DNA from: Candidatus Gastranaerophilales bacterium
Lineage (GTDB): Bacteria > Cyanobacteriota > Vampirovibrionia > Gastranaerophilales > Gastranaerophilaceae
Direction of reading: 5' to 3'
NCBI GenBank assembly: GCA_028693235.1
Contig: JAQUVW010000001.1
Coordinates: 470,616 to 534,615 of the forward strand
DNA length: 64,000 bases
Positions within the stretch are counted from its first letter, which is position 1, and each line of letters begins with the position of its first letter. Below the pieces are notes generated by a model that saw nothing but the letters and a program-made list of their open reading frames with translations, had not been told where the DNA came from and did not search any database. The position numbers and the translations under genes were made by a program. Shown here piece after piece: positions 39,842-49,842 of the stretch.

Positions 39842-40170
39842 ATTTCCCCTCTGAAAGTTTAGTGGTAGTGAGTACAAAAAGTTTGCTGTTTCGTCGCAAT
39901 ACACGCACCTATAATTATATCGTGCAGATAAAAATGGTGTAAAATTAATAGTCTAGGTTATTTGTTTCGTCATAATCTATCTCCTGTGCCGAGGTGTAAC
40001 ATCAATACTAAGTTGAGTATTCCGACTTTACGGTTGCGGACCAGCCAAGGAATTTCACCCTGATTCCCTCAAGTTAGTCTATTAATTGTAATTCTTTTTT
40101 TATCGTCATGTCAAGCAATTAATTATATGTTTGGGTGTTTATATTTCATGTAATAATATTGGTACTTTAC
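39842..40170. other. Intergenic stretch between nrdD and the GNAT gene
   Basis: These 329 bases hold the cobalamin riboswitch (39943-40087) and a 100-base leader to nrdD with its AGAGGGG ribosome site. At the right end is a short AT-rich region that must contain the promoter for the leftward transcript and the start region of the rightward GNAT gene. No further gene is seen. Confidence 0.7.
39943..40087 (-). promoter_or_regulatory. Cobalamin (B12) riboswitch upstream of nrdDG
   Basis: On the minus strand the B12-box region reads GAGGGAATCAGGGTGAAAT, then TCC, GCTGGTCCGCAACCGTAA (about 40024-40075). This matches the conserved GGTGAAAxTCC and CCGCAACxGUAA blocks of cobalamin riboswitches. The outer helix P1 is visible: AATTAATAG (40087-40079) pairs with CTATTAATT (39951-39943). 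The 3' end of P1 lies about 100 bases from the nrdD start. I do not see a clear intrinsic terminator in that gap, so translational control is as likely as termination. Confidence 0.88.
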
Positions 40171-42513: not shown

Positions 42514-42751
42514 ACAAACATTATATTTCGAATTAAAAATAATTGAAATTATTATGTTTAACATTTCTTTGTTTGTATTTAGACAATCTTTTATTTCTTT
42601 AGTGCTCTCAACAAAAGTTCATCAAAATCAAAAATATACGTATAGTTGCTTATTTAGTTACCTTGACAGTCGTTGAAAAAACAGCAAAAGCTCTTTGTGT
42701 AATCTTTCAAGTATTGTTTGATTTTTGGGATTTGAATTAGTTTTAAACATA

Positions 42752-42776
42752 TAAAAAGACTCCACAAAGGAGTCTT
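42752..42776 (-). terminator. Terminator for tRNA-Arg
   Basis: The stem AAGACTCC / GGAGTCTT has a five-base loop (42756-42776). It is followed on the minus strand by TTTTTAT, just beyond the tRNA-Arg 3' end. Confidence 0.85.
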
Positions 42777-42779
42777 AAA

Positions 42780-42856
42780 TGGCGCGCCTGGAGGGATTCG
42801 AACCCCCGACCTTTTGGTTCGTAGCCAAACACTCTATCCAGCTGAGCTACAAGCGC
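42780..42856 (-). tRNA. tRNA-Arg(ACG)
   Basis: On the minus strand the acceptor GCGCTTG pairs with CAGGCGC (one G-T pair), followed by discriminator G and an encoded CCA (42782-42780). The D-arm is AGCTCAGCTGGATAGAG. The anticodon loop CTACGAA lies in stem TTTGG/CCAAA and gives anticodon ACG. The T-loop is GTTCGAATC. The mature tRNA body is 42783-42856. Confidence 0.97.
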
Positions 42857-42912
42857 ATTCAAGTATTATTCTATTACAAAAATCTTACTTCGCAAGTGGT
42901 TTCTTCTCTTTT

Positions 42913-42985
42913 CAAAAAAAAATAGCTGCATAGCAGCTAATACTTAATAATCTTGGGAGGAGATTTGGGGATTTGTTACACTTAT
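42913..42985 (-). ncRNA. Candidate small RNA with anti-Shine-Dalgarno stretch and intrinsic terminator
   Basis: On the minus strand a seven-base-pair hairpin TAGCTGC/GCAGCTA (42939-42923) is followed by nine T (42922-42914), a textbook terminator. No minus-strand gene precedes it. Just upstream is the unpaired C-rich run ATCTCCTCCCAAG (about 42964-42950), complementary to Shine-Dalgarno sequences. A TATTAT lies about 20 bases further upstream. The implied transcript is about 60-70 nt. The layout recalls cyanobacterial Yfr1, although the core sequence differs. This is inference without expression data. Confidence 0.35.
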
Positions 42986-43128
42986 AATAATTCACCTGAA
43001 GGAAAAAGTTTACACTTTTAGTCAAAATATTAATAAAAATTTACAAATTATTGATTTCATATCGTATTTTAGTTATTTTTCTATGGATTTTTTCTTTTGT
43101 TTTATCTAAAATTGTTATTGAGGTAATT

Positions 43129-44697
43129 ATGATTGACTTATTAATAAATTCTTTAATACTTATTTTCCTATACGTAATGGCGTTTTCGCTTTATTATGCT
43201 ATAGTCGTTTTTGCTAGTACTAAAAAGCATGCTCTTCAATCTCAACAAAAATTTTCTACAACCGCATACAATAATAATATTGTAGTTATTATTTATGCTC
43301 AAAATGACGAAAAAACTGTTGTTCCGATGCTTGAGATGCTAAATAAACAAACTTATCCCAAAAATAATTATCAAATTCATATTATTCTTGATAATTGTAC
43401 CGATGATTCTGCGAATAAGTTAGAGTTTATCGGTGGTGCAAAAGTTTGGCGTTTATCAGACGGTGCTCCGATGGGAAAAGATGAGGCTATTTCTTGGCTT
43501 TTAGAACGTTTGATTTCTTTTCAAAATGTTAATGCCTTTGCTTTTTTGAACGCAAACAGGGTGGTTGATGAGAATTTTTTAACCTCTGTTAATGCTTCTT
43601 TGTTTAAATCTGACATAGTTGTCGGCTCAACAGAGATTGTTCTTGGTGAAAAACCTTCTTTTTATGAAAGAATGATTGATAGAATAAATAGATATTCAAA
43701 TAATATTATTAAGACGGGTCGCTCTGTTTTGCGATTGGCTGCCAGAATTGATTCTGATGTTGTGGCTATTAAACAAGAAGTTATAGAAAAAATAAGGTGT
43801 GTCGATTTTAAGGACGTAAACAGCGAGCTTAAATATACTGTTTTGTTGACTCGAAACAATTTCGTGCCAATATATTCTCCTGAAGTTAAAACTTGGGTAG
43901 ATATTGCGTCTTACAATTCGGAGAGTCCAAGTGTATCTTATAGATTTTCGTTGTTTAAGCATTGCTTTAAGATGATGTTTTCTCGTAATTGGAAATTTTC
44001 AGAATTTATATTGAATATGTTTACGCCAAATGTATTGTTATTATTAATGCTGTTGATTGGTATAGCTGTTTTCTCTTATAATTATTATTTTATATTTGAT
44101 TTTCCGTTGGTTGCAACATTTGCCGCATTGCTTATAGGTGCATTTATTGCTTCTATCGCTATTGAAAAACAAGAACATGCTCAATTTAGATATTTGTTTG
44201 CTTATCCGTTTTATTCGATTTTTGATAGATTTGTTTTGCAATCGCCTATATATAAGTTTTTTAAAAAATTACTTGCAAAAAAAGAATATATAAATGTTGA
44301 AAAGGCTACTTTGCCTGTTATTGTTACTGATGGAAAAAACAATATTAATTGCTTTTTAGATTTAATTTCAGAAGATGGGTTGGTAAAGGTAATATTTAAA
44401 TATAAAAAGAAAAGGTATGTAACGGATTCTCATATAAGAATGTGTGATGCAATAAAAGATATTACGGATAAACTTTTCCAACATGGTTTTAGAATTAAGA
44501 TATGTCAAACCTGTGCTTATTTTTCACCAAAGATAGATGGAACGACAAATATGCTAAAAGGATTTTGTAACAGGGCTGTTGTGACTGATGAATTGTCAGA
44601 ACCTACAGAAACATTATTATGGAACACTTGCGAATTCTATTTGCCTGAAGATTTGAACAAAATCGTTAATATTAATACATATAAAAAAGAAAAGTAA
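43129..44697 (+). CDS. Degenerate family 2 glycosyltransferase-like membrane protein with C-terminal Cys4 domain
   Basis: The start is ATG 43129 (522 residues) with GAGGT upstream; the frame reaches back to a TTG at 43051 without a ribosome site. A first membrane span (about 3-25) precedes a GT-A-like domain (NNIVVIIYAQNDEKTV, IHIILDNCTDDS). Where the metal-binding DxD should be, it reads FAFLNANRVV, and the later catalytic ED region reads NSELKYT, so key acids are missing. Two or more spans follow (about 275-345). The C-terminal 120 residues hold CQTC, then FCNRA, and WNTCEFYLP, a CxxC...C...C pattern of a small metal-binding domain. It is probably catalytically inactive or altered; role unknown. 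Confidence 0.7.
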   Translation: MIDLLINSLILIFLYVMAFSLYYAIVVFASTKKHALQSQQKFSTTAYNNNIVVIIYAQNDEKTVVPMLEMLNKQTYPKNNYQIHIILDNCTDDSANKLEFIGGAKVWRLSDGAPMGKDEAISWLLERLISFQNVNAFAFLNANRVVDENFLTSVNASLFKSDIVVGSTEIVLGEKPSFYERMIDRINRYSNNIIKTGRSVLRLAARIDSDVVAIKQEVIEKIRCVDFKDVNSELKYTVLLTRNNFVPIYSPEVKTWVDIASYNSESPSVSYRFSLFKHCFKMMFSRNWKFSEFILNMFTPNVLLLLMLLIGIAVFSYNYYFIFDFPLVATFAALLIGAFIASIAIEKQEHAQFRYLFAYPFYSIFDRFVLQSPIYKFFKKLLAKKEYINVEKATLPVIVTDGKNNINCFLDLISEDGLVKVIFKYKKKRYVTDSHIRMCDAIKDITDKLFQHGFRIKICQTCAYFSPKIDGTTNMLKGFCNRAVVTDELSEPTETLLWNTCEFYLPEDLNKIVNINTYKKEK

Positions 44698-48978: not shown

Positions 48979-49842
48979 ATGAATTTGCAAGAAATATACT
49001 CCTACGGAAACGAAAAACCAGCGATTTCATTTGAGGTTTTCCCTCCCAAGATTGATTTTGCCGAAAAAAGTCAATATTTAATGAACGAATTGACTGAATT
49101 AAAAGAATATAATCCGAGTCTTATTTCTGTGACATATGGAGCAGGTGGCTCGACTAAGTCGAATTCAATGGAGCTTGCATTGAAAATTAAAGATACTTTA
49201 AACTTAGAGGTCATGCCTCATTTTACGTGTGTTAATGCAGATAAAAAATTCGTACTGGATTATATTTCAAAAATTGAAGCTGATGATATAAAAAATGTTT
49301 TGGCTCTAAGAGGTGATTTGCCTCAAGATGAAGAGTGCGTTTTTTCTGATTTTGAGCATGCGGAAGATTTGGTGAAATTTATCTCCTCAAGAACTAATTT
49401 GAACATTGCAGTTGCCGGTTATCCGGAAGGACATCCACAGTCTGTTTCTTTGGATAGTGATATTGATTATTTGAAAAAGAAGGTTGATGAGGGTGCGTCT
49501 GCTATTTTTACACAGTTGTTTTTTGATAATGTGTATTTCTACAAATATGTTGATAAAATACGTAAAAAAGGTATTAATATTCCTGTTATTCCGGGTATTC
49601 TACCGATTACGAATGTAAAACAATTGAATAGAATGGTTGAAATGTGTAAAGTGCATGTTCCTAATTTATTGTTAGAAAAATTAAATTCTAATCAAGATAA
49701 CGCAGCAGAAATAAGGCAAATAGGTATTGAATTTGCCTCAGAGCAAGTTATGGATTTGGTCAATTTTGGTGTAAAAGGTATGCATTTTTATATATTAAAC
49801 AAGGCTGAACCTGTTAAAACTATCTTAAATAGTGTATTGTAA
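48979..49842 (+). CDS. metF: 5,10-methylenetetrahydrofolate reductase
   Basis: A 287-residue TIM-barrel flavoenzyme. Conserved motifs are ISFEVFPPK (with catalytic Glu), SVTYGAGGS, PHFTCVN, LALRGDLP (folate/FAD site), VAGYPEGHP and FTQLFFDN, all in the usual order and spacing. It reduces methylene-THF to methyl-THF for methionine synthesis. The ribosome site AAGGATAAAG lies in the nine-base gap after xerD, so the two are probably one operon. Methyl-THF feeds methionine synthase, often B12-dependent, which fits the B12 riboswitch elsewhere in the window. Confidence 0.95.
   Translation: MNLQEIYSYGNEKPAISFEVFPPKIDFAEKSQYLMNELTELKEYNPSLISVTYGAGGSTKSNSMELALKIKDTLNLEVMPHFTCVNADKKFVLDYISKIEADDIKNVLALRGDLPQDEECVFSDFEHAEDLVKFISSRTNLNIAVAGYPEGHPQSVSLDSDIDYLKKKVDEGASAIFTQLFFDNVYFYKYVDKIRKKGINIPVIPGILPITNVKQLNRMVEMCKVHVPNLLLEKLNSNQDNAAEIRQIGIEFASEQVMDLVNFGVKGMHFYILNKAEPVKTILNSVL

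Follow-up and report, generated by a model that had tools for sequence, protein, structure and literature searches.

The window, a 64,000-nt stretch of the 2.1-Mb genome of a Gastranaerophilales bacterium (G000), very probably contains an RNA gene, here called type I, which is a well-conserved small RNA (sRNA) family absent from Rfam 15. The Gastranaerophilales and Melainabacteria are gut bacteria known mostly from metagenomes, and the gut Melainabacteria are a non-photosynthetic lineage, sister to the cyanobacteria in which the sRNA Yfr1 occurs. The mechanism that we propose in full, in which a trans-acting sRNA of about 64 nt pairs with ribosome-binding sites and blocks translation, is in our judgement probable. 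In it, type I would have its own promoter and intrinsic terminator and would act in trans; its CUCCUCCC core, held in a weak loop or single-stranded, would pair with ribosome-binding sites of the GGGAGG type on selected mRNAs, and this pairing with purine-rich sites would block translation. A second sRNA of the same genome (type II), with the seed in common and driven by a sigma28-like promoter, would act with type I as a pair, and the flagellar hook gene flgE would be a target of both. The anatomy of the RNA, its core and terminator, the sister RNA, the promoter classes and the unusual flgE ribosome sites are computational results. For the Gastranaerophilales, the outcome is two candidate regulators, both with models, together with a testable target and, for one of the two RNAs, a promoter class. 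A literature search covering titles and abstract openings returned no description of a trans-acting sRNA for the Gastranaerophilales, Melainabacteria or Vampirovibrio.

The type I RNA consists, in order, of a short 5′ end, the core CCCCAAAUCUCCUCCCAAGAU, which reads AAUCUCCUCCCAAGAU in the window, and an intrinsic terminator with nine T residues (Table 1). The sequence-only reading had described a minus-strand hairpin with nine T residues and no gene upstream of it on that strand; both the hairpin and the T run are present, and the next gene upstream is divergent. The anti-Shine-Dalgarno run that had been placed immediately before the hairpin is also present, as CTCCTCCC, and is complementary to ribosome sites, but it is located 15 nt before the stem and does not adjoin it. 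The TATTAT had been said to lie at a distance that gives an RNA of about 65 nt, and this agrees with our value of about 64 nt, which follows from the predicted start near 42977.

Table 1. Features of the type I locus (positions are those of the window).
Feature	Position	Strand	Comment
Predicted sRNA (type I)	42977-42914	minus	about 64 nt, both ends predicted; from sequence and conservation
Type I 5′ end	near 42977	minus	predicted, 6-7 nt past TATTAT
Conserved 21-nt core CCCCAAATCTCCTCCCAAGAT	42950..42970	minus	exact in 25 of 30 loci
Presumed seed CTCCTCCC	42955..42962	minus	complementary to GGGAGGAG
Terminator hairpin TAGCTGC-TAT-GCAGCTA	42939-42923	minus	perfect 7 bp; terminator scan
T9 tail of terminator	42922-42914	minus	sequence
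-10-like TATTAT	42989-42984	minus	TATNAT common in the same zone of other loci
Possible -35 TAAACT	43007..43012	minus	17 nt before TATTAT; by eye, weak
Conserved upstream element TGTAAATTTTTATTAA	43030..43045	minus	5′ of the type I promoter; shorter form GTAAATTTTTATTA in other loci
tRNA-Arg(ACG)	42856-42780	minus	downstream of type I, 57 nt away, co-directional
Divergent gene upstream of type I	ATG at 43129		glycosyltransferase-like by eye

Two terminators, those of type I and of the tRNA, were found in 42700-43140, compared to a shuffle mean of 0.2. A consensus promoter scan assigned a separate promoter-like site (42895-42868) to the tRNA-Arg; the same scan did not score the type I promoter or pick up the -35 TAAACT. 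A Pfam search with the divergent gene at E ≤ 0.01 matched nothing. The 65-nt type I RNA folds better than its shuffled versions (z = -2.8), and a 75-nt version does so weakly (z = -1.6). In the window RNA, six of the eight seed letters had a predicted unpaired probability of about 1.0, the first two having 0.14 and 0.18; averaged over the eight letters, this probability had a median of 0.80 and a lowest value of 0.10 among 138 loci. Elsewhere in the window, an AdoCbl-II (B12) riboswitch was scored above the Rfam gathering score at 40007-40086 of the minus strand.

The beyond-chance status of type I rests mainly on conservation. When 111 nt were used in BLAST searches, matches at E < 0.001 were obtained in 46 of 59 genomes, the window's own counted, and matches near E = 1 (58 of 59 genomes) are mostly chance, the best one lying outside the core in at least one genome (G052). 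The 30 loci in which the 21-mer core was compared (L002-L031, L002 being the window itself) were either identical or, in 5 cases, one edit away. The exact 21-mer was found in at least 115 public genome stretches (the genome_contigs collection), a scan that selects identical cores and is thus uninformative on the degree of core conservation. Its carriers, among the matches listed, were labelled Gastranaerophilales, Melainabacteria, "Cyanobacteria bacterium", Candidatus Avigastranaerophilus and Scatousia. Two carriers were labelled Fusobacterium CAG:439 and Brachyspira, and because their flanks resemble those of the remaining loci, these labels are probably wrong. BLAST and covariance searches gave AAAAT variants of the core in distant families. 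On comparison of the loci, the core is kept while the flanks drift.

A covariance model, R1, matched 177 of 289 class genomes at E ≤ 0.1, of which 168 belong to the window's family (own genome included) and 5 lie elsewhere in the order; the remaining 4, in other orders of the class, are weak (the kinship counts given here and for the type II model were read from rows and by subtraction). R1 matches the window at G000:C1:513530-513595, and the window's type I sequence was among those from which it was built. In the family, 155 of the 168 matches reached E ≤ 1e-4 and 13 were weaker; inspection of four of these 13 (G035, G008, G366 and G413) found three that were not type I and one that was type II. 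The R1 search gave no convincing match in genera g22, g27, g36 and g3. A weak, CU-rich R1 match (E = 0.003) was also seen in the window's own genome at C3:150213. One IMG/VR contig holds a complete type I sRNA (L364:1818-1838), probably as host flank, and a type II 25-mer was found in no such contig; a phage origin was rejected.

In a scan that was independent of the model, 137 of the 138 loci whose sequence extended far enough had a terminator past the core, in contrast to 73 of 600 random stretches, and these terminators comprise 56 distinct stems. When 55 matches (53 distinct) were aligned to R1, 98.1% of the cells paired and 64 cells carried two-sided changes, compared to 13.2 in shuffles, with 0 of 500 shuffles as high; this alignment was fitted to the model, which favours covariation, and both it and the type II alignment were made from 55 hand-chosen sources, a subset of the loci. 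Two-sided changes are seen in all 6 terminator pairs, and 44 of 500 shuffles have as many such pairs; the small core hairpin shows none. This hairpin, AUCU..AGAU, was predicted in the window RNA but lacks covariation support: four of its five pairs are invariant, and 7 of 53 sequences break the fifth. Conservation together with covariation rules out a chance hairpin. Thus both the core and the hairpin, whose conservation in relatives the sequence-only reading had put forward as a check, are conserved (BLAST, 21-mer scan, R1 and covariation); the synteny that it had also named is different, the flanking genes of type I varying between relatives.

The promoter zone contained TATNAT in 116 of 145 loci, compared to 356 of 5000 random 27-mers, and GTAAATTTTTATTA occurred within 120 nt 5′ of the core in 105 of the 145, counts that are not independent because the same genome is included twice in cases such as L010/L092 and L018/L102. 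The TGTAAATTTTTATTAA element is possibly an UP element or an operator. Spaced CATG..CATG pairs were seen close to the type I promoter in 88 of the 145 loci, and together with the element they could possibly form the operator of some regulator. The first ORFs downstream of type I lie on the plus strand in 82 cases and on the minus strand in 51, and belong to many families. In 61 loci the divergent gene upstream is aroQ-like (Pfam check of one); the corresponding gene of the window belongs to a family of 21 members, and other families are found at other loci. Because the neighbouring genes differ between genera, type I stands alone.

The type II sRNA is located in the same genome at G000:C2:254926-254999 (L314). 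It has CUCCUCCC(C)AAG in common with type I, whereas the flanks and promoter differ, and it is made up of a 5′ hairpin, the stretch ACCUCCUCCCC(A/G)AGUCURGU and a terminator. Type II was first met as weak R1 matches in basal families, often in tandem, with three copies in one stretch of G050 and two each in G036, G042 and G047; its spread in the family was revealed by a search for GGGAGGAG..ATG, in which 8 of 30 loci were reverse-strand copies of it. In basal families (L225, L216, L218 and L226), type II genes stand in tandem, two or three together, and by eye each copy has a sigma28-like promoter of its own.

A type II model, R2, matched 191 of 278 class genomes at E ≤ 0.1. The window's family accounts for 175 of these; 4 more belong to the rest of the order, and the other 12 to different families of the class. 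Three of the misses listed are from the window's family. On inspection, most of the 12 have ACCUCCUCCCCAA, or a sequence close to it, flanked by a hairpin on either side, and two of them, in G271 and G288, were plainly false. Type II is nearly universal among the genomes of the family that were searched, and it also occurs in other orders of the class. Both of its helices covary, with 135 two-sided cells compared to 38.0 in shuffles, and 13 type II loci compared with Rfam gave no sRNA family above the gathering score. In other orders, weak R2 matches in three genomes (L329, L330 and L332) gave a further candidate (ACATCCCCCCTCTTTTAGTCTGCCGC..GCGGC terminator), which may be another C-rich sRNA.

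The sigma28 consensus is TAAAGTTT-N11-GCCGATAA. A strict pattern for a sigma28-like promoter was found in 28 of 60 upstream regions of type II and 0 of 132 of type I, random 90-mers giving 25 of 5000; a relaxed pattern, picked after the strict misses had been inspected, gave 57 of 60, 0 of 132 and 89 of 5000, respectively. Judged by this promoter sequence, type II appears to be switched on together with the flagellar genes, a link that is incomplete because the sigma28-like motif is also present in G021, a genome without flgE.

The hook protein was matched in 37 of 59 relatives at E ≤ 1e-20, with Pfam hook domains present and at least one genome (G049) having only a shorter homologue. In the other 22 of the 59 there was no flgE match, and many of these keep type I; therefore, flgE cannot be the sole target. 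In the 29 flgE upstream regions with the start located, GGAGG was found in 26, GGGAGG in 12 and GGGGAGG in 6, compared to 56, 3 and 0 of 954 background genes, a set that omits Yfr1 loci and loci fetched via SD-like patterns. A thirtieth region (L384), which also has GGGAGG, was left out of these counts because automatic detection missed its start. Given GGAGG, an extra G was present in 12 of 26 flgE sites and 3 of 56 background sites (Fisher p = 3e-5, the homologous genes not being independent). Counted by gene, GGAGG was present in 27 of 30 flgE, 5 of 16 flgD and 9 of 60 other genes, seven of these nine resembling flgD by eye; flgD, the neighbour of flgE, thus has similar sites less often. 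The flgE ribosome site of the window's own genome is GGGAGGAAAA-ATG.

The median predicted pairing of the flgE sites with the cores was stronger than that of about 95% of 901 background genes. The flgE sites also ranked within roughly the top 7% when scored with the ordinary 16S anti-Shine-Dalgarno sequence; high translation is thus a competing explanation for flgE, and strong translation alone could explain part of the signal. Going by these sites, flgE is the best-supported candidate for a shared target of type I and type II. The target prediction at ribosome sites that the sequence-only reading had suggested thus gave an enrichment at flgE and no general excess. In the window's own genome, GGGAGG..ATG was found at 22 places compared to 17 for reversed controls, and GGGAGGAG..ATG at none. 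Of 30 loci examined for GGGAGGAG..ATG in 99 relatives, 10 had an ORF of at least 50 aa at the ATG. For TTGGGAGGA..ATG, 98 places compared to 99 for controls were counted in 117 family genomes, or 96 compared to 67 without G011, where the control is inflated. An ORF of at least 50 aa was present at 19 of 30 such loci examined, one being flgE, and among these 19 only a 78-aa protein (three genomes) and a 501-aa protein (two, in one genus) recurred.

The 22 GGGAGG..ATG places of the window's own genome include flgE and also the HU and MinE genes (L245 and L254), which are possible further targets with GGGAGG ribosome sites. Within the window, complementarity was best near 49030-49050 on the minus strand, a site that lies antisense within a gene and was discarded. 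Hfq (PF17209) was matched in 0 of 29 genomes, and the same profile matched 5 of 14 controls. From the features described above we infer transcription of the RNA, its pairing in the cell, the repression and the list of targets.

The core is longer than a Shine-Dalgarno match needs, and this speaks against the pairing mechanism. It might instead be fixed by a protein or by the ribosome, with the RNA titrating its partner in the style of CsrB and CsrA; this would fit a conserved stretch (CCCCAAATCTCCTCCCAAGAT plus TAT) that exceeds the needs of a seed and complementary start sites that show no general excess. We consider it improbable, since known protein-decoy RNAs carry more than one motif copy and these RNAs carry one, type II has only CUCCUCCC(C)AAG in common with type I, and the flgE sites are extended to GGGAGG and GGGGAGG as pairing predicts. 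Type I could also be a sponge that pairs with another sRNA and not with mRNAs, as Yfr2 does with Yfr1, whose motifs are nearly complementary and interact according to the available portion of PMC6778093; this is quite unlikely, because both of the RNAs described here are C-rich and their cores are unable to base-pair with one another. That type I is a short leader or attenuator of the tRNA-Arg or another downstream gene is suggested by the co-directional tRNA 57 nt away, yet this reading is very nearly negligible: the tRNA has a promoter-like site of its own, the ORFs downstream lie on either strand and belong to many families, and the terminator intervenes at all but one of the 138 loci. Such a leader was rejected on account of the differing neighbours.

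Both RNAs might be Melainabacterial descendants of the ancestral RNA behind cyanobacterial Yfr1. The sister lineages, the similar size, the CUCCUC in both and the same layout in type II point in this direction, and the Rfam Yfr1 model (RF01116) passes its cut-off in 80 of 194 genomes of the phylum under strict filters. We regard such descent as unlikely, however, as RF01116 is absent from the type I region (none at E ≤ 10 in 42700-43150) and from the 13 type II loci, and passes the cut-off in none of the listed class genomes; with strict filters it has no match in the window's genome, and three family members reach only E 0.33-0.68. Nor did R2 hit the Yfr1 locus in any of 8 cyanobacteria that carry Yfr1, a crude motif screen showed no GuaB- or Trx-like neighbours of type I, and C-rich seeds arise repeatedly. 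The widest proposal, a two-RNA anti-Shine-Dalgarno system across several Vampirovibrionia families that has a common ancestor with Yfr1 and in whose non-photosynthetic branch one copy came under the flagellar sigma factor while both RNAs read the same GGGAGG sites, the hook gene first, is equally doubtful; if it were true, such control would be older than oxygenic photosynthesis.

The sequence-only reading had likened the RNA to Yfr1. What looks like an orphan, terminator-ended RNA with a conserved C-rich core complementary to ribosome sites was indeed found in a sister lineage, but the kinship was not supported: type I is not Yfr1, from which it differs in core, 5′ hairpin, Rfam model and location, and no Rfam family covers this region of the window. 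The type I core is CUCCUCCCAAG, whereas the ultraconserved Yfr1 core is 5′-ACUCCUCACAC-3′, and Yfr1 lies beside guaB in 25 of 31 and trxA in 27 of 31 genomes (both from the available part of PMC2190773), whereas a crude motif screen found no GuaB- or Trx-like motifs in 483 neighbour ORFs of the 145 type I loci. Yfr1 has two stem-loops with 16-20 unpaired nt between them, and for type I no 5′ stem-loop is predicted; type II, with two hairpins around a single-stranded linker, is the closer Yfr1 look-alike. Yfr1 (RF01116) is a short standalone RNA of 54-69 nt, and type I is predicted to be one of 64 nt; a conserved CU-rich core with CUCCUC and a terminator are common to both. Two Yfr1 interactions map to ribosome-binding regions, as stated in the portion of PMC6974561 used here. 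Yfr1 and Yfr10 are, according to an extract of PMC6778093, present in one genome with one seed and with different structure and expression; type I and type II are likewise two sRNAs with one seed, although here one has a sigma28-like promoter and the seeds differ from those of Yfr1 and Yfr10. Type I and type II offer an outgroup for the origin of Yfr1.

A further likeness, in an unrelated phylum, is to CjNC1 and CjNC4 of Campylobacter. From the accessible part of PMC4626219, these sigma28-dependent RNAs repress flgE2 and cj0428 reporter fusions in E. coli, Hfq is dispensable for repression of the cj0428 fusion, and their loss in Campylobacter gave no phenotype. As in those RNAs, so far as that part describes them, a region complementary to a ribosome site is followed by a stem-loop; type II seemingly resembles them in sigma28 dependence, whereas type I is without a sigma28-like promoter (0 of 132). 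CjNC1 and CjNC4 act on the flgE2 reporter in that account, and here the flgE ribosome sites are strongly enriched, with the 16S anti-Shine-Dalgarno sequence also scoring high. After Campylobacter, this would possibly be a second example of an RNA under sigma28 control that acts on hook genes in the absence of Hfq.
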